Assembly (NCBI RefSeq): GCF_030685535.1
Contig: NZ_CP131601.1
Location: 930,001 to 994,000 of the forward strand
DNA: 64,000 nucleotides
From: Photobacterium leiognathi
GTDB taxonomy: Bacteria; Pseudomonadota; Gammaproteobacteria; Enterobacterales; Vibrionaceae
Reading direction: 5' to 3'
Shown piece by piece: positions 16,041 through 47,440 of the stretch (the stretch's first letter is position 1; the number at the start of each line of letters is the position of its first letter). The position numbers and the translations under genes are program-made. The notes under the pieces were generated by a model that was not told the origin of the DNA, did no database searches, and worked only from the letters and a program-made list of their open reading frames with translations.

Positions 16041-17372
16041 TCACTTAAGGTGTTTGGAACGAACTGGATAACGAGTTTTATTGATACGAACGGCTCTCTG
16101 CTTGGGCCGTTTTTTTCTTTCAGGTAATATGTAACGCTTTACTTGTTTTCTCATTGCTCTCAGTTTTTGAGGAATTGAACCTGGCGAAGCGATGGCACAC
16201 CACATTAATTCATCTTGAATATCTCTTAACGCCATCATAAAACTTATCCGTAATGGTGAAACATTCGCTTCTGCCGCTATTCTACTTATTTCTAAGCGAA
16301 CAAGATTATAAGCTATCAATATTCCCCATATTTCTTGCTCAATACCTTCTACTGATTGACTACGCAATAATATTTCATCTTCAAGCATGTCATGTTTTAT
16401 TTCACCATAACTGTTTTCTATCTCCCAACGTTCGAAATAAACATCAAGCAAAGCTTGATAGCTATAATGCTCACCAACTAAGGAAGTAAGAAGCCCTTGG
16501 ATATGATATTTTTGAGTTTTTTCTGGATAAAGCACTAATCGAGCTTGCCATTTTTCAGGAAGGCTTGGGTCTTTAGCTCTTGCATATTTGGATACATCCA
16601 TTTCTACAATCAAATCTCGTCCTGCTTCATCAAGCTGCTTAATGACGGTATATCGCGTATTTGATTTAATTGGAGTCATCCAATGACTCGAATCATGCTG
16701 ACGTTGCCAATTAATCATCAACTCGGCGCCAAGATAACATCGGTCAAAAATAGTTAAAGAATCTGGCGTTATTGAGGATATAAGCTGTTTAGCATAGTTC
16801 TCTTCACCAATATTGCTGGGACCAAATGCTACGTTGTGTATTAATCGACTACGAAGGGAGCATAAAGCACATAACCTGACGATAGGGTATTCTGTATGCT
16901 GTATCTTACCGTGTTTGACATACTGAAAGTGACTCGCTAATTCTGGAGTATCATGACTTCTAAATTGAGTTCCATCGACAGAGAAAAGGCGTAAGCCTTT
17001 CCATGTGTCTCCGCTATCTTCGGCTTTCGTCCAATATTTGGCAGTGAGTGAGAAAAGTGCTTTTAGAGGCTGTGCTGTCAATCGTTTTCGCGCCTGAGGG
17101 ATAGCACTTGGTGCAATAGAATCACCTTGTGATCGCGATAATTGCAAATCAAGTTTATTCAAGACATCGGTTATCGATCTATTACGATATAGGCCAATTC
17201 CAACGATTAACCAAACAACCAATTCCGCAGGTAATTTTCGTCTGCGTATACTGGCCTTATTGGTTTCATCTAATGCTTGTTGAATCCACTCAAGAGGTAA
17301 GTCTCTTTGAAATAATGAGAGTGATTCTGGTGCTGCAAACGCATCTACATCAATGAGCCAATGTGACAACAT
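16041..17372 (-). CDS. IS4-family transposase (copy 1)
   Basis: The product of 443 residues begins MLSHWLIDVDAFAAPESLSL. The frame is open to 17441, but the upstream 23 codons are read from a hairpin, so the start at 17372 is preferred. DDE residues of the RNase H fold are visible in FSVDGTQF, IFDRCYLGAEL and the IS4 signature Y-2-R-3-E-6-K (YFERWEIENSYGEIK). It cuts and pastes the element. A GGGGG that could act as ribosome site lies inside the hairpin at 17375-17410, which would limit expression. Amino-acid sequence equals that of the second copy. Confidence 0.93.
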   Translation of the reverse strand: MLSHWLIDVDAFAAPESLSLFQRDLPLEWIQQALDETNKASIRRRKLPAELVVWLIVGIGLYRNRSITDVLNKLDLQLSRSQGDSIAPSAIPQARKRLTAQPLKALFSLTAKYWTKAEDSGDTWKGLRLFSVDGTQFRSHDTPELASHFQYVKHGKIQHTEYPIVRLCALCSLRSRLIHNVAFGPSNIGEENYAKQLISSITPDSLTIFDRCYLGAELMINWQRQHDSSHWMTPIKSNTRYTVIKQLDEAGRDLIVEMDVSKYARAKDPSLPEKWQARLVLYPEKTQKYHIQGLLTSLVGEHYSYQALLDVYFERWEIENSYGEIKHDMLEDEILLRSQSVEGIEQEIWGILIAYNLVRLEISRIAAEANVSPLRISFMMALRDIQDELMWCAIASPGSIPQKLRAMRKQVKRYILPERKKRPKQRAVRINKTRYPVRSKHLK

Positions 17373-17374
17373 AA

Positions 17375-17410
17375 AAAATACCCCCAGTTTTGCAAAACTG
17401 AGGGTATTTT
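17375..17410 (-). terminator. Hairpin ahead of the transposase start (copy 1)
   Basis: Two 18-base arms (AAAATACCCTCAGTTTTG and its near-complement, one mismatch) meet with no spacer. The minus-strand 3' arm runs into TATTTTTTATG, where ATG is the transposase start. It resembles a terminator that also buries the ribosome site, protecting the element from read-through activation. Confidence 0.65.
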
Positions 17411-17459
17411 TAACTATCTGAAAGATCGTGCAACCAATCAATTTCTTAAGTGATAGGTG

Positions 17460-18715: not shown

Positions 18716-18829
18716 GGAGGCCCCATTGGTCCTCCCGCAACACTAACTTGTGAACTCGGCCAGGCCCGGAAGGGAGCAACCGCAGCAGGCGATGTGTGTG
18801 CCGGGATGTGGCTGGTGGGGCTTCCACCC
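18716..18829 (+). ncRNA. ffs: 4.5S signal recognition particle RNA
   Basis: The 114-nt sequence matches E. coli 4.5S RNA in length and layout. The termini pair (GGAGGCCCC with GGGGCTTCC), and the Ffh-binding region has the conserved TCAGG-like internal loop AGGCCCGGAAGGGAGCA with the GGAA tetraloop and the GCCGGGATG return strand. With Ffh it targets nascent membrane proteins to FtsY. Its 3' end is the attachment site of the Tn7-like remnant starting 12 bases later. Confidence 0.95.
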
Positions 18830-18841
18830 ATCTGAAATTCC

Positions 18842-18912
18842 TGTTGTTTGCACCATACCTCTGCATAATTCTACTTCCTTACTGCATAACTTGTACCATA
18901 CCTCTGCATAAA
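18842..18912 (+). repeat. Left end with TnsB-type binding repeats
   Basis: The terminal site TTGCACCATACCTCTGCATA starts at 18848, a partial copy CTGCATAA lies at about 18882, and a second full site TTGTACCATACCTCTGCATA lies at 18891-18910. Confidence 0.8.
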
Positions 18913-18918
18913 CTATTT

Positions 18919-18938
18919 TTGTTGTAGTTTAACAACAA
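18919..18938 (+). promoter_or_regulatory. Palindrome ahead of tnsA
   Basis: TTGTTGT and ACAACAA arms are separated by six bases, ending 13 bases before the tnsA start; AACAAC/GTTGTT repeats overlap the ribosome-site region. This looks like an operator, but no regulator gene is present in the remnant. Confidence 0.4.
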
Positions 18939-18951
18939 AAAGAGCGTTGTT

Positions 18952-19587
18952 ATGTATAGGCGAAATCTAAGACATTCCCGCGTTAAAAATATCTTCAAAT
19001 TTGTTAGCTCTAAGATGAATAAGGTATTAACTGTAGAATCAAGATTAGAGTTTGATACTTGTTTCCATCTTGAATATTCGCCAGATATTTCTTTTATAGA
19101 GGCGCAGCCAGAAGGTTTTATTTATCCTTTCCAAGATAAACATCTTCCATACACACCAGATTTCTTGATTATCGATAAGGGTGAAAGAAAACTGATTGAA
19201 GTGAAACCTTTTAAAAAAACGCAGTCGCCAGAATTTCAACAACGTTTCTCTGCAAAGAAAGCACAAGCAGATAACTTTGATATTCCGCTGATATTAGTGA
19301 CGGAAAAACAAATTCGAGTGAATCCGATTCTGAATAATCTAAAACTACTGCATCGCTATTCTGGATTTCAAAGTTTTACTCCTCTTCATCTGTCCTTCCT
19401 CAAACTTGTTAAACGTTACAAACAAATAAAAGTAAAAGACTTTATAACGTCTTGTCATGTTGAACAAAATGTCGCCGTAAAAACAGCTTTGGCGCTTATA
19501 TCATCTGGGATGCTACACACAAACTTATCGGCACAAGAAATTAGCTTAGATTCTATTGTGTGGTGTAGTGGTCATGAAGAATTATGA
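18952..19587 (+). CDS. tnsA: Tn7-like transposase subunit TnsA (endonuclease)
   Basis: TnsA makes the 5'-strand cuts at transposon ends together with TnsB, allowing cut-and-paste transposition. The 211-residue protein has the restriction-enzyme-type nuclease core: E29/E33 in VESRLEFD, D70 in YTPDFLII and E83-x-K85 in LIEVKPF, matching the catalytic E/D/Q-x-K pattern of E. coli TnsA. The C-terminal part (about 130-211, HLSFLKLVKRYKQIKVKDF) fits the winged-helix TnsC-contact domain. The reading frame is undamaged. It overlaps tnsB by 14 bp. Without tnsC and full tnsB it cannot transpose alone. Confidence 0.88.
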   Translation: MYRRNLRHSRVKNIFKFVSSKMNKVLTVESRLEFDTCFHLEYSPDISFIEAQPEGFIYPFQDKHLPYTPDFLIIDKGERKLIEVKPFKKTQSPEFQQRFSAKKAQADNFDIPLILVTEKQIRVNPILNNLKLLHRYSGFQSFTPLHLSFLKLVKRYKQIKVKDFITSCHVEQNVAVKTALALISSGMLHTNLSAQEISLDSIVWCSGHEEL

Positions 19588-20209
19588 TAAACCTAGTCTC
19601 TTCAGTGACGAGTTTGAGTTCGAGAATCAAATTGAAGAAATTGAACTAGCCTCAAATGCTGAAGATGATGTTTCCAGAGATCTTGCTTCTTATCCAGATG
19701 CGATTCAGAAAGAGGTGATGCGTAGATACTACTTTATAGAGTGGATGCGTAAAGAATTAGCAGGAGGATGGACGCAGAAAAACCTCGATCCTCTGCTCAA
19801 TAGGGCGGCTAGAGAACTCCAGCTAAAAGCACCTAAATGGAGAGCTTTAGCTAATTGGTGGAAAATATATTCGCAATCAGGATTTCAACTTACTTCTTTA
19901 ATACCAAGGCAAACAGCAGGAAATAGGAACCTAAAAGTTAAGAATGAAATGGTATTTTTTGATAAGGCTCTTGAGCGTTATTTAGTACCTGAAAGGCCAT
20001 CTATTGCGGCGGTATATCAGTATTATTCAGATTTAATACGCATTGAAAATCTGAATATTGTTGAGAATAAGATTGAAGCACTATCCTACAAAGGTTTTTA
20101 CAACAGGATTAAGAAACTATCGGCTTATGATGTGAAAGTCGCCCGTTATGGAAAGTATTCCGCTGATATGGAGTTCAATAGCATTGATGCACACTATCCG
20201 ATCAAATGA
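19574..20209 (+). pseudogene. tnsB: TnsB transposase, N-terminal fragment only
   Basis: From ATG 19574, inside the end of tnsA, 211 codons encode the N-terminal part of a Mu/Tn7-type transposase. There is an acidic leader, then helix-turn-helix-rich DNA-binding segments (YYFIEWMRKELAGGWTQKNLDPLLNRAARELQL and RPSIAAVYQYYSDLIRIENL). It stops at MEFNSIDAHYPIK, just where family members continue into the PLERVEIDHT start of the DDE catalytic domain. The fragment could still bind the transposon ends but has no catalytic residues. It meets a truncated cargo gene tail to tail, marking a deletion junction at about 20195-20210. Confidence 0.82.
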
Positions 20210-20526
20210 TCGTAAATAGCTTGATGATCTAGAGGCTTAAAAGATTGATTAGTGCATTCAAGACATTTTATTTTAGGCTTTAGGCAAACACCTTGTTGCC
20301 ACTCATTATTACAAGCAATGGCATATCCTGAGCGACCTTCTTTGTTTTGCCACCTGATGGCGTAACATTGGGTATTGCCTTTGAAGTAATCAGAAAAAAT
20401 ATTAATTTTCTCTTCAGGTGTCAGTATTGGTTTTAATGATAGTAGTTGATTACGCTTAGTTTCTAGTTGATGAAGCTGAGCTTTGAGTTGCTCAATCTGC
20501 TGTTCTAAGATACTGAGTTCATCCAT
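20194..20526 (-). pseudogene. TOTE conflict-system primase protein, N-terminal fragment
   Basis: The 110-codon frame starts with a coiled coil (about 1-35, LEQQIEQLKAQLHQLETKR) and continues into the start of an archaeo-eukaryotic primase domain of the TOTE type. The conserved run is IFSDYFKGNTQCYAIRWQN, then GRSGYAIACNNEW, GVCLKPKIKCLEC and PLDHQAIYDHLIG. Full proteins continue with the primase active site and a helicase, several hundred residues more. Here a stop follows the HL-G motif immediately. This is the 5' end of a lost cargo gene reading inward from the right end, fused by deletion to tnsB. TOTE systems are proposed defence systems. Confidence 0.8.
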
Positions 20527-20667
20527 CTTTACCTATGGTAGCAACAGAGTAAATACTTCAAAGATTATAGGACACAAGATGCATTTGAGAGAATTTTTGC
20601 ACGGTATGATGTAAAGGAAGAAATTTTCTTTCATGTAAAGCCAATATTTGAGCATTTACTTAAATTT

Positions 20668-20760
20668 TATGCAGAGATATGGTGCAAAACTATGCAGAGA
20701 TATGGTTCAGATTTAAAGGTAAGATATTGATTGTTATGCAGAGGTATGATGCAAGCGACA
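20668..20760 (-). repeat. Right end with TnsB-type binding repeats
   Basis: Three sites lie in the opposite orientation to the left end: TATGCAGAGATATGGTGCAA (20668-20687), TATGCAGAGATATGGTTCAG (20691-20710) and TATGCAGAGGTATGATGCAA (20735-20754), then the terminal GCGACA. A weaker match TTGCACGGTATGATG is near 20597. The first two are nearly contiguous, as in Tn7 right ends. Confidence 0.8.
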
Positions 20761-21448
20761 AGTGTTTCTAATTTCGTCATATTATCGAAAATTATCCTTT
20801 TTAGACTTATCTTTATCGTTAATTAAAACACAGTAATTATTTTTTATCTTGTAATCGATAAATTAGATGATTTGATGTCGTATTGAGCGTATATTTTACT
20901 GATAATATTACTTATTTTTAAAAGTAATATATTGATAAATATACTCAAAAAATAGAGATTTTATCGTTTTATATATAAAGTAAAATCTTCACTTTTCTAC
21001 TAATTAGTATTGAAATCAACGTCATAAAAGCTCTGGGGTTTTAATAGGAAACTATCATTTAAATTAGAATACAATCGTTCTTTAATATTATTTTTCTTTC
21101 TATTTTTAAATTAAAGTTCTGAAATGTAAATATATTTCATGGGGGAGTTAATATAAATCATATACAAACTTATGCTGAATTTCTCAAAAATTAGCCCATG
21201 AATGAGTTTTGTTGTTTTACCATGGGTGTTTATTTAAAATAAATAACTAAATAATCATTTATTTACAATTAACTTGTTGTATTTAAAATGCAAATATTCG
21301 TTTTTTTATTTTTATCAATAGGTTCAGTTTTAACACGTTAATATTGTTTAAATTTGATTTAAATATGTATTTTTTTAAAAGATAATACACTTGTTTTTTT
21401 AATATGTACTATAATTTAAAAACATTTATCTTTTGCGAGATATCAGTC
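20761..21448. other. AT-rich region without recognisable gene
   Basis: These 688 bases between the transposon remnant and the sphingomyelinase gene are strikingly AT-rich, with long runs of T and A and no convincing open frame, repeat pair or RNA. They probably contain the promoter of the sphingomyelinase operon and are a candidate H-NS-silenced region. Confidence 0.5.
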
Positions 21449-22780
21449 ATGTACATTAAATGCTTTTTGTTCTCTTTAACCATAATTTTGTCGAGTTATT
21501 GTTATGCTGATACGTATATATATTTGACTAACAACTCATCTGAAATACTCGATATTCGCGTAAATCATACGGGTTACAGTGGCGATACAATGCAAAAGAG
21601 GGAGGAATGGAATCAAAATGCTTACACAGTAAAACCTTGGGAAACCAAGAAAGTTTTAACTTTTAATAGAAATGTTGGAGTAAAAAATAATAAGTCATAT
21701 AAATTTTCAACTGAAGTCACTTCAGAAAGCGGCTCGAAAGTGTATTTAGAACAAATGTTACGAGGAAGTTTTTGGGGTTCATCTATAAAATATAAACTCA
21801 GTGCTTCCGGTGTTACTAGTTATTATAAAAACAATTACTCAATACACAGATTTACTTCTAAAAAATATAGTGATAGCCCTACTGAACTGGCGTTTCGTTC
21901 CAAACAAACAGACGGTTTTGATGATATCTATTATACAATAACACCATCTCAAAATTCCAAATCATCAACTACGGTAAGTTCTACACTAAAGATGCTGACT
22001 TATAACATATGGGCACTTACACCATTAGCAAGCCACGTTAATCAAAGATTAAATGAATTACCTAAATTTCTTTCTAATTACGATGTGATTGCTTTGCAAG
22101 AAGTATTTTATTCAGATAAAAGACGATCTTTTTTACAAAAGTTAGCGAAGGAATATCCTTACCAAACAAAAGTATTAAAAGCGCCTAGTTTCTATGGCTT
22201 AAATGTTTACGATGGCGGAGTGATTATTGTTAGTAAATACCCAATTGTATCAAAAGATTATCATGTTTTCTCTCGATGTAGTGGCTCAGACTGTCTAGCC
22301 GATAAAGGTGTTGTTTATGCAGAAGTAGTTAAAGGTGGCAAGTCATACCATGTTTTTGCAACTCATGCAGCATCAACAGATTCTTATTCGGCTCGAGTAG
22401 ATCGCATTTACCAATTTTGGGATATCAATAAGTTCGCTAAGAGGCAAAATATACCAAAGAATGAAGTTGTTATCTTTAGTGGAGATTTTAACGTAAATAA
22501 GAATAAATACTTTAATCATGATTACAAGTGGATGCAGAGTTTACTAAATGCAAATGAACCTAAGTATTCTGGTCATACTGCAGCAACTTATGATAAAAGT
22601 TTAAATAGTTTTGTAAAATCAAATTCGGAATATTTGGATTACGTATTTGTGAGTAATGTTTATGGTAAAGTAAAATCAAACGTAAACAGGGTGTTTATTC
22701 CTAGAACAACATCTAATAGCTTATGGTATCACTGGGACTTATCCGATCATTTTCCAGTAGAGGCAATCATTAAACAATGA
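21449..22780 (+). CDS. Secreted sphingomyelinase C-type phosphodiesterase (probable hemolysin)
   Basis: The start at 21449 gives a signal peptide (MYIKCFLFSLTIILSSYCYA, cut before DTY) and 443 residues. Residues about 21-170 are a beta-rich N-terminal domain of unknown role. From about 183 the DNase I-like fold of bacterial neutral sphingomyelinases follows, with N186 in LTYNIW, E218 in LQEVFY, H306 in FATHAAS, D346/N348 in SGDFNVN and D433/H434 in LSDHFP. DGGVIIVSKYPI, the spacing and LDYVF match Bacillus sphingomyelinase and staphylococcal beta-toxin. It would split host sphingomyelin to ceramide and phosphocholine. An upstream in-frame ATG (21404) lacks a ribosome site. A 4-bp overlap joins it to the next gene. 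Confidence 0.88.
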   Translation: MYIKCFLFSLTIILSSYCYADTYIYLTNNSSEILDIRVNHTGYSGDTMQKREEWNQNAYTVKPWETKKVLTFNRNVGVKNNKSYKFSTEVTSESGSKVYLEQMLRGSFWGSSIKYKLSASGVTSYYKNNYSIHRFTSKKYSDSPTELAFRSKQTDGFDDIYYTITPSQNSKSSTTVSSTLKMLTYNIWALTPLASHVNQRLNELPKFLSNYDVIALQEVFYSDKRRSFLQKLAKEYPYQTKVLKAPSFYGLNVYDGGVIIVSKYPIVSKDYHVFSRCSGSDCLADKGVVYAEVVKGGKSYHVFATHAASTDSYSARVDRIYQFWDINKFAKRQNIPKNEVVIFSGDFNVNKNKYFNHDYKWMQSLLNANEPKYSGHTAATYDKSLNSFVKSNSEYLDYVFVSNVYGKVKSNVNRVFIPRTTSNSLWYHWDLSDHFPVEAIIKQ

Positions 22781-23742
22781 TGAGGTATGTTTTCTTTCTA
22801 TTTGTTTTTTTAGTTGGCACCATTTATTGGGTGTCAACTAAATATAATAGGTTTGAAGAGAGAAAACCTATTAATTCGGGTAATGAAGTTAAAAATCATG
22901 TTCGCTTGATAAGAGAAAAAGAAACTCGAGTTATTGATGAAAGTTTTATTGAATATAAGAAAGCGGACGATAATTATAATGAAAGCATACTGCGCATTCA
23001 TTCCTTGAGCGATGAATTGAGAATACTAGAGGGGAAAGAATTATTTAATAAACTTGAGGGTTTTTGGTTAAGTTGTAAGGTCAATCATACTTGTGATTAC
23101 CAACTTGATGAATTAAAAGAACAACTACCTGATTCATTATTTAACTTATTATCTTCCTTTGAAGTTTTAAGGGACGAGTGGTTGATATCCTCCCAAGGTA
23201 TTTCTAAAGATATTCATTTTTTAGAGAAAATTGAGCAAGTTAGGCAACAATATGAAAATGTATGGGGAGAGTATACAGAACTATTATTTGAAGATGAATT
23301 TCAATACTACAATTTCCGAGCTGAAAGTATATCTTTGCAGCAAGTAACCCCCTCCGAATATATTGAACAGATAGATATATTGTTTAATCAGTTTGAAGAA
23401 AAGAAATTAGACTCTTATGTTAAATCAAACAGTGCCAAATTTGATTATGCTATAGATAATATGCCTGACAGTTTTAGTAACGAAGAGCGTGAATCACTTG
23501 TAAAAGATCTTTCGCTGATTTATTTAACAGAGCAAGAAAGAGCTGACTTTAATAAACGAGAGATGCAAATTAAAACACAAAATCATGAGGTCGAAACATA
23601 TCAACACCAACTATCAGAATTAAAAGCAAGGTTAGATAGTCTACGTATAACAGAATACAGTGAATTATCGGATAAAGCCTGGCAGGATGAATATCAGCGT
23701 CGTATAGAAGAGTTTCGTATTGAGTTCTTTGATTATCAATAA
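22777..23742 (+). CDS. Lipase-foldase-like (Lif/LimK-type) membrane-anchored protein
   Basis: The 321-residue protein has one N-terminal membrane anchor (YVFFLFVFLVGTIYWVS) and then a highly charged, alpha-helical periplasmic domain. The pattern recalls steric lipase chaperones (Pfam Lipase_chap): LFNKLEGFW with QLDELKEQLPDSLFNLLSSFEVLRDEW, then VRQQYENVWGEYTELLFEDEFQYYNF, and a long C-terminal coiled coil. The exact RxxFDY(F/C)LSALGE signature is not seen, so the match is remote. ATG 22777 overlaps the sphingomyelinase stop (ATGA), which implies coupled synthesis. I infer a dedicated folding helper for the upstream enzyme. Confidence 0.65.
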   Translation: MMRYVFFLFVFLVGTIYWVSTKYNRFEERKPINSGNEVKNHVRLIREKETRVIDESFIEYKKADDNYNESILRIHSLSDELRILEGKELFNKLEGFWLSCKVNHTCDYQLDELKEQLPDSLFNLLSSFEVLRDEWLISSQGISKDIHFLEKIEQVRQQYENVWGEYTELLFEDEFQYYNFRAESISLQQVTPSEYIEQIDILFNQFEEKKLDSYVKSNSAKFDYAIDNMPDSFSNEERESLVKDLSLIYLTEQERADFNKREMQIKTQNHEVETYQHQLSELKARLDSLRITEYSELSDKAWQDEYQRRIEEFRIEFFDYQ

Positions 23743-24107
23743 GTTAATTTTATGCTGATAATTGGGATGGATGATGTCTGACATTTGATTGTTTTTTGTC
23801 CTTAAATAGTGATGGCAAGCTCACGAAATAGTCTCGTAAATATATTTTATTATAATTATTAATAGTAAATAGTCGGAAGAATGCGATAATAGTGCGAACT
23901 TTTTGTGGCGAGACAATTAGTTAATATGGTGCGGTTAAAAAATGCACAGTTTATGCTTTATTTTTGTCAGCGAAAGCGGCAAAATGGCTACACATTTGAG
24001 CTCGGTCACTCTATTTGAATTAAATGTTCATAAAACACATTGTTGTTTGCCGAGTTGGTGATAATGTCTCGCCGCATTCCGAATTCTTAAAGTAAAAGGT
24101 TACAAAT
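23743..24107. other. Structured gap with long-range inverted repeat
   Basis: GTGGCGAGACA (23905-23915) pairs with TGTCTCGCCGC (24065-24075), and flanking bases extend the match (ATAAT/ATTA). The 149 bases between them carry further short repeats (GAGCTCGG and GCCGAGTT). It may be a folded 5' leader of the gene at 24108 or the relic of a small mobile element. No coding frame is seen. Confidence 0.5.
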
Positions 24108-46018: not shown

Positions 46019-47350
46019 TCACTTAAGGTGTTTGGAACGAACTGGATAACGAGTTTTATTGATACGAACGGCTCTCTGCTTGGGCCGTTTTTTTCTTTCA
46101 GGTAATATGTAACGCTTTACTTGTTTTCTCATTGCTCTCAGTTTTTGAGGAATTGAACCTGGCGAAGCGATGGCACACCACATTAATTCATCTTGAATAT
46201 CTCTTAACGCCATCATAAAACTTATCCGTAATGGTGAAACATTCGCTTCTGCCGCTATTCTACTTATTTCTAAGCGAACAAGATTATAAGCTATCAATAT
46301 TCCCCATATTTCTTGCTCAATACCTTCTACTGATTGACTACGCAATAATATTTCATCTTCAAGCATGTCATGTTTTATTTCACCATAACTGTTTTCTATC
46401 TCCCAACGTTCGAAATAAACATCAAGCAAAGCTTGATAGCTATAATGCTCACCAACTAAGGAAGTAAGAAGCCCTTGGATATGATATTTTTGAGTTTTTT
46501 CTGGATAAAGCACTAATCGAGCTTGCCATTTTTCAGGAAGGCTTGGGTCTTTAGCTCTTGCATATTTGGATACATCCATTTCTACAATCAAATCTCGTCC
46601 TGCTTCATCAAGCTGCTTAATGACGGTATATCGCGTATTTGATTTAATTGGAGTCATCCAATGACTCGAATCATGCTGACGTTGCCAATTAATCATCAAC
46701 TCGGCGCCAAGATAACATCGGTCAAAAATAGTTAAAGAATCTGGCGTTATTGAGGATATAAGCTGTTTAGCATAGTTCTCTTCACCAATATTGCTGGGAC
46801 CAAATGCTACGTTGTGTATTAATCGACTACGAAGGGAGCATAAAGCACATAACCTGACGATAGGGTATTCTGTATGCTGTATCTTACCGTGTTTGACATA
46901 CTGAAAGTGACTCGCTAATTCTGGAGTATCATGACTTCTAAATTGAGTTCCATCGACAGAGAAAAGGCGTAAGCCTTTCCATGTGTCTCCGCTATCTTCG
47001 GCTTTCGTCCAATATTTGGCAGTGAGTGAGAAAAGTGCTTTTAGAGGCTGTGCTGTCAATCGTTTTCGCGCCTGAGGGATAGCACTTGGTGCAATAGAAT
47101 CACCTTGTGATCGCGATAATTGCAAATCAAGTTTATTCAAGACATCGGTTATCGATCTATTACGATATAGGCCAATTCCAACGATTAACCAAACAACCAA
47201 TTCCGCAGGTAATTTTCGTCTGCGTATACTGGCCTTATTGGTTTCATCTAATGCTTGTTGAATCCACTCAAGAGGTAAGTCTCTTTGAAATAATGAGAGT
47301 GATTCTGGTGCTGCAAACGCATCTACATCAATGAGCCAATGTGACAACAT
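46019..47350 (-). CDS. IS4-family transposase (copy 2)
   Basis: The 443-residue product starting at 47350 (MLSHWLIDVDAF) is identical in amino-acid sequence to that of copy 1. It has the same DDE motifs (FSVDGTQF, IFDRCYLGAEL, YFERWEIENSYGEIK). The open frame runs to 47419 through the hairpin at 47353-47388. The frame is intact, so either copy could mobilise both. Confidence 0.93.
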   Translation of the reverse strand: MLSHWLIDVDAFAAPESLSLFQRDLPLEWIQQALDETNKASIRRRKLPAELVVWLIVGIGLYRNRSITDVLNKLDLQLSRSQGDSIAPSAIPQARKRLTAQPLKALFSLTAKYWTKAEDSGDTWKGLRLFSVDGTQFRSHDTPELASHFQYVKHGKIQHTEYPIVRLCALCSLRSRLIHNVAFGPSNIGEENYAKQLISSITPDSLTIFDRCYLGAELMINWQRQHDSSHWMTPIKSNTRYTVIKQLDEAGRDLIVEMDVSKYARAKDPSLPEKWQARLVLYPEKTQKYHIQGLLTSLVGEHYSYQALLDVYFERWEIENSYGEIKHDMLEDEILLRSQSVEGIEQEIWGILIAYNLVRLEISRIAAEANVSPLRISFMMALRDIQDELMWCAIASPGSIPQKLRAMRKQVKRYILPERKKRPKQRAVRINKTRYPVRSKHLK

Positions 47351-47352
47351 AA

Positions 47353-47388
47353 AAAATACCCCCAGTTTTGCAAAACTGAGGGTATTTT
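47353..47388 (-). terminator. Hairpin ahead of the transposase start (copy 2)
   Basis: Same 18-base-arm hairpin as in copy 1 at the corresponding position. Confidence 0.6.
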
Positions 47389-47440
47389 TAACTATCTGAA
47401 AGATCGTGCAACCAATCAATTTCTTAAGTGATAGGTGTTA

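Follow-up and report, generated by a model that had tools for sequence, protein, structure and literature searches.

The window, that is the whole 64-kb stretch of DNA analysed, contains a Tn7-like element of 1919 bp, here called the stub, on the forward strand at positions 18842-20760. Its coordinates, length and TGT...ACA termini had been proposed by a sequence-only reading and were confirmed from the sequence: the element starts with TGTTGTTTGC at 18842 and closes with GCGACA at 20760. The tnsA-proximal end (18842-18951, forward strand), which is the right end according to the Tn7 convention as worded in PMC6360697, consists of the terminus, TnsB-type sites at 18848-18868 and 18891-18911, and a degenerate site at 18869-18889. 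The distal end (20667-20760, reverse strand) holds sites at 20734-20754, 20690-20710 and 20667-20687 besides the terminal ACA, and these three sites are inverse in orientation to the two proximal ones. The two full sites and one partial site counted earlier at the left, and the three at the right, correspond to five pattern matches and the degenerate site.

A 21-base site pattern, allowing three mismatches at most, was matched five times in the window against 0.01 expected from shuffled sequences, which rules out a chance origin of the end repeats. With a 20-base pattern and at most two mismatches the same five sites, and none besides, were recovered from the 4.75-Mb genome, the reversed control giving none. 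The repeats, whose relation to known TnsB sites had been left for checking, match in type those found at the ends of complete ffs elements, and the element has the usual features of Tn7-like ends, namely TGT...ACA and several TnsB sites per end. The core CTCTGCATAA is common to both ends and, among the 15 sequence sets scanned, occurs elsewhere only in Photobacterium angustum, Photobacterium sp. GB-56 and one site of genome G018. Sequence and site-pattern searches revealed no second copy of the element in the genome.

The tnsA gene (18952-19587, forward strand) is an open frame of 211 codons, intact as had been claimed, whose product matches PF08722 (2.2e-11) and PseTnsAB (2.1e-44) and falls among TnsA proteins in a tree. 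Residues E33, D70, E83 and K85, which we take to be the catalytic ones, are invariant in 20 aligned TnsA proteins, and the nearest database TnsA differs at four residues. A simple scan detected no promoter-like site before tnsA (four were found in the region against 7.0 expected). By itself this TnsA is presumably idle.

Only a remnant of tnsB is present (19574-20209, forward strand). It encodes residues 1-209 of about 615, followed by two codons and a stop, and is devoid of the DDE catalytic domain and the C terminus, so the stub has no capacity to encode a catalytic TnsB. The fragment matches PseTnsAB (3.6e-43) and the TnsB of Tn6677 (8.4e-09), is 60-62% identical to the nearest Photobacterium ffs elements and, up to the junction, 96% identical (200/209) to a full-length TnsB of Photobacterium leiognathi (P0127). 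At the break point, just ahead of the catalytic domain, full-length relatives continue with RVLEKVEIDHT. All 20 N-terminal residues that are invariant in 40 aligned TnsB proteins are kept, and for this reason the fragment may still be able to bind the ends. Moreover the same truncated protein, with one residue (73) different, is the head of a database cluster of three (P0001) and is encoded on a 1.73-Mb contig distinct from that of the window; the deletion is therefore not private to one strain. This truncated form is shared by more than one strain, which fits descent and function equally. Natural TnsAB fusions of about 800 residues containing both the TnsA and the TnsB domains were also seen among the relatives, in P0136 (Photobacterium damselae) and P0135.

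The position of the break, the invariant residues kept, the intact reading frames and the occurrence of the same truncated protein on another contig are what could be expected had the stub been selected as an inhibitor, in which a catalytically dead part of TnsB, with TnsA, would occupy the ends of relatives, or in which the ends would confer target immunity on ffs. The P-element derivative KP, which arose by internal deletion, keeps the ends, has a transposase reduced to its DNA-binding part and acts as an inhibitor. The stub has the same plan of ends and a transposase cut to the DNA-binding part; it differs in being single-copy, and inhibition would be attributed to it by analogy only. However, a comparable tnsB remnant in genome G049 is broken by a stop and elements stack at ffs despite resident ends, so we regard selection as an inhibitor as most improbable.

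Convergent with tnsAB, on the opposite strand, lies the beginning (110 codons) of a cargo gene for a TOTE-type primase-helicase (20194-20526, reverse strand; PF22548 AEP-TOTE, 8.3e-23). The internal deletion suggested by the sequence-only reading, which missed this antisense fragment, is borne out by the junction between tnsB and TOTE at 20197-20200. At the nucleotide level, the similarity to complete tnsB stops at element position 1352-1358 and that to TOTE starts at position 1363 at the earliest. By codons, tnsB reaches 20199/20200 and TOTE begins at 20197, leaving 3-4 bp common to both sides. The junction is observed; its short overlap is probably the mark of one illegitimate deletion. None of the three coding segments, tnsA and the remnants of tnsB and TOTE, contains a stop.

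The likely layout before the deletion can be appreciated in the ffs element of genome G027, in which tnsA, tnsB and tnsC are followed by a sulfatase gene, tniQ and csy2, then by a shortened csy3, an exonuclease gene and finally a convergent TOTE gene. The TOTE frame of G027 is complete (784 codons), is convergent as in the stub and lies on the same contig as the tnsA end of that element (L036:186-2537); no Tn7-type end was found in the 194 bases before the contig end. Ten Vibrionaceae loci outside the genus likewise showed no such end over 1.33-1.35 kb upstream of the gene. In no other element inspected was TOTE directly beside a distal end, which counts against a parent with TOTE in that position. 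A match spanning the junction was absent from 328 other genomes of the family (two candidates scored per genome), and the titles and abstract openings of the literature matches listed include none that combines TOTE and Tn7.

The attachment site and its guide

The ffs gene, which encodes the small SRP RNA and serves as the attachment gene, is located at 18724-18820 on the forward strand (Rfam RF00169, 72.3 bits). Between its Rfam end and the element there are 21 bases, and not 12 as read earlier. Inside ffs, positions 18762-18793 (forward strand) form a putative protospacer, 48 bases from the element; four relatives with a full gene set each have a last spacer that matches it. In each of them, the P. 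toruni plasmid and genomes G013, G014 (whose tnsB is frameshifted) and G032, this spacer is the last in an array behind cas6, and it matches 25, 22, 22 and 23 of the 32 bases, respectively. For each of the four spacers this is the best place in the whole window. Shuffled spacers (200 per spacer) gave means of 16.5-16.7 and largest values of 19-20 of 32, and one shuffled target each for G013, G014 and G032 gave 18-19 versus 23, 21 and 23.

Guides of type I-F leave every sixth base unpaired. All four spacers have mismatches at positions 6, 7, 12, 24 and 30, near to an every-sixth pattern. The gap from protospacer to element is 48 bases here and 47 in the three relatives measured within their own genomes, which is the geometry that would be expected of RNA-guided insertion. 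As judged from these relatives, a crRNA of the parent would have guided insertion into the ffs site, 48 bp past the protospacer. In G005, a divergent relative with the full gene set, the best ffs match was 20/32 versus 17, 19 and 22 for three shuffled targets, and we claim no match for it. The array behind cas6 in G005 (L045) has a last spacer that is seemingly shortened and begins with AGGCC, as do the ffs spacers elsewhere among the relatives, an observation to be taken as a lead only.

No 5-bp target duplication flanks the element, the adjoining bases being ATTCC at the left and AGTGT at the right, and therefore the shared insertion of both ends cannot be proved. Comparison with the empty site of genome G041 showed that the segment from 20761 to 23842 is island DNA, with the conserved core starting again near 23843. 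Because the right flank is not native to ffs, the duplication may have been lost through later damage. Its absence also argues against the element having inserted recently in its present reduced form. The window also holds two IS4-family transposase frames of 466 residues each that look identical, at 16041-17441 and 46019-47419; compared with P. angustum and GB-56, the first falls within a gap.

Parent lineage and the second element of the genome

The ffs gene is described as an attachment site of I-F3b elements in PMC11406308. Of the 30 TnsB loci scanned, 28 have it upstream; this count includes the window, as well as L151, where two partial matches were recorded. None of seven loci in the other clade, which contains an I-F3a element of the window's own genome, has it. 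A tree of 43 TnsA proteins places the stub beside P0007, named P. leiognathi, and L134 of P. toruni, the other Photobacterium ffs elements being more distant; long-branch warnings attach to L010, L031 and L135, whose joins may be false. A branch with 100/100 support separates a set of 36 rows, of which 30 score as located at ffs, from a seven-row clade that includes a second, Tn6677-like (I-F3a) element of the window's own genome; on this tree the ffs label needs four changes and not one, since L152 lies in the set without ffs in its locus and the reference rows are unscored for ffs. The TnsA phylogeny had been chosen beforehand as a test by which the proposed origin could fail, and TnsA groups with the ffs elements. 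A non-ffs Tn7-like lineage is ruled out by this tree together with the counts of ffs loci.

The earlier proposal of an ffs-homing I-F3b CRISPR-transposon as the source is upheld by the TnsA tree, the 96% identity to P0127 and the ffs spacers of the relatives. A pattern for the I-F CRISPR repeat, which returned five matches in the I-F3a stretch of the genome and one in the P. toruni element, gave none in the window, and the statement that no repeat or guide remains holds likewise. In the 21 kb downstream of ffs, tblastn with the P. toruni proteins retrieved TnsA and TnsB only, with no match for tnsC, tniQ, cas8/5, cas7 or cas6. The stub is derived, as judged by sequence comparison, from a type I-F3b CAST but is not itself a CAST, because tnsC, tniQ, cas genes and CRISPR were searched for and not found. 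Of the interpretation as first drawn, the origin and the deletion stand, while working ends and mobilisation in trans are no more than possibilities; the distance to ffs had to be corrected and the antisense TOTE fragment added.

Among the closest known systems is the I-F3b CAST on the P. toruni plasmid NZ_CP101696.1, which shares the tnsA-tnsB order and 71.5% of nucleotides over stub positions 6-1358, and carries an ffs guide in its own last spacer. Unlike the stub, which has none of them, it retains tnsC, tniQ, csy2, csy3, cas6f and a CRISPR array. Elements of the Tn6900 (AsCAST) type from Aeromonas have a TnsA about 53% identical to that of the stub, whereas the Aeromonas salmonicida S44 plasmid element compared, presumably Tn6900, has full tnsA, tnsB and tnsC in the part compared. 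According to PMC12774636, AsCAST uses ffs. Among the titles and abstract openings of the literature matches listed we found no natural deletion derivative of a CAST.

The tnsA-proximal end is 94% identical to the end present in P. angustum and Photobacterium sp. GB-56, and the tnsA fragment with its end is 94-96% identical to the two. In the same comparison, identity is 76-79% for two genes upstream of ffs, 70-71% for a nuclease gene, 90% for one core gene and 100% for ffs. This lineage has probably spread between species, because the end and tnsA fragment stand at 94-96% versus 70-90% for the neighbouring protein genes.

The genome also harbours a separate I-F3a (Tn6677-like) CAST of about 22.6 kb (G000:C1:48122-70770; L034, L035, L183) comprising tnsABC, tniQ, cas genes and two short I-F arrays. 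Its TnsB scores 1085 bits against that of Tn6677, and one of its ends lies at the very end of an open reading frame of 149 residues. All other TnsB, TnsC and TniQ matches in the genome belong to this element, whose ends are of the ACAACCATAAA type, unlike those of the stub, and whose arrays contain no 32-mer above 17/32 against ffs. Help from the strain's own I-F3a element is unlikely, judging from these comparisons. The stub is probably stranded in this strain, because TnsB, TnsC and TniQ are otherwise encoded only by a distant I-F3a element, the ends of which differ. Other strains might plausibly provide a helper, given the near-identical full-length TnsB known from P. leiognathi.

Reduced elements at ffs and the fate of the stub

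The census of the genus Photobacterium covered 52 genomes, one per species, and 50 ffs loci were scored, two genomes giving no ffs match. With a site model built from sites of the very genomes scanned, and a threshold of 16 picked after the scores were known, a tnsA-proximal end was found beside ffs in 18 of the 50 loci. Six of these 18 have a tnsA match of at least 200 residues and 12 have a truncated tnsA or none; G005 and G031, in which tnsA adjoins ffs without any site exceeding 16, fall outside the 18. When both are added, all seven core genes are matched in four of 20 loci (G013, G014, G032 and G005).

Two-ended elements without a complete tnsB number six: that of the window, those of G049, G030, G018 and G043, and the second element of G013. 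The five others resemble the stub in having both ends at ffs, but they are 3.7-14.8 kb long, with other genes and other deletion points. At the distal terminus, G018 reads ATA and G043 shows a single altered base. Matching 5-bp flanks were observed in two of the six, G049 and G030, with GCGTT on both sides. The nearest in plan is G049, which keeps both ends, a full tnsA and the start of tnsB, interrupted by a stop, together with four larger reading frames. Machinery loss is frequent at ffs and the window holds the most reduced two-ended case observed. It is the smallest two-ended I-F3b derivative found in this analysis, a natural mini-CAST whose plan is close to that of laboratory donor constructs.

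The ffs array of G013 (G013:C4:195998-220490) begins with a complete I-F3b element bordered on both sides by GCGTG, followed by a 3.7-kb two-ended element and a third end. The 3.7-kb element, in which tnsA is cut at 124 codons, directly adjoins the complete one. In G030 (G030:C1:818196-824386) a 6.2-kb two-ended element has perfect GCGTT flanks and a largest open reading frame of 1019 residues; a truncated tnsA is the only core transposition gene found in it, and no TnsB match was found in the G030 genome.

Such arrays of ends at ffs, as in G013, G030, G018 and G049, raise the alternative that a deletion across two neighbouring elements fused the tnsA end from one with the distal end from its neighbour, an origin to which the differing 5-bp flanks and the non-native right flank of the stub would also conform. 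Against it, both ends of the stub share the CTCTGCATAA core, otherwise rare among the 15 sequence sets, and the TOTE gene of G027 is likewise convergent and on one contig with its tnsA end, so that we hold a fusion of two elements to be quite unlikely.

We consider it likely that the stub is a two-ended internal-deletion derivative of an I-F3b CAST that carried TOTE near its distal end, and that it persists as a stranded relic. A single illegitimate deletion would have fused tnsB codon 209 to TOTE codon 110, a mechanism proposed for the junction that is observed. The deletion would have removed the catalytic domain of TnsB and, as the relatives suggest, tnsC, tniQ, the cas genes, the CRISPR array and other cargo. 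What remains cannot move itself, although a close relative entering the cell could still bind its ends and perhaps use them. Two points speak against a stranded relic: the stop-free frames, which are more than an old relic needs, and the presence of the deletion beyond one strain.

The stub might alternatively be mobile though non-autonomous, with complete I-F3b elements of its own lineage, which share its ends, moving it in trans by supplying TnsB, TnsC, TniQ and an ffs-guided effector. Both ends are present, a 96% identical full-length TnsB exists in P. leiognathi and the lineage seems to have moved between species, as its 94-96% identity against 70-90% for the neighbours suggests. In addition, the machinery-less two-ended elements of G030 and G049 keep perfect 5-bp duplications; these, however, fit gene loss after insertion equally well. 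Mobility in trans is made unlikely by the single copy in the genome, the missing target duplication, the lack of an I-F3b helper in this genome and the absence of a junction match in the 328 other family genomes (two candidates each).

It is very unlikely that the stub is a working satellite and brake at once, carried by complete P. leiognathi I-F3b elements while damping the parent or excluding it from ffs. If this were true, the stub would be a KP-like natural regulator of RNA-guided transposition. If a helper arrives, it would work like a cargo-less mini-CAST donor. Together with its relatives, the stub illustrates the erosion of RNA-guided transposons after homing. Deletion derivatives can be parasites, brakes or mere relics, and the stub offers a simple test case.

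A second copy of the tnsA fragment in P. angustum (G002:C2) was considered as a mobile mini-element and dropped: its 2.2-kb segment is apparently bounded by IS-type sequence and therefore gives no evidence for Tn7-type movement. At this locus (L047, about 8.3-10.5 kb) the tnsA fragment is accompanied by an open reading frame of 465 residues and is 84% identical to the ffs copy of the same genome.
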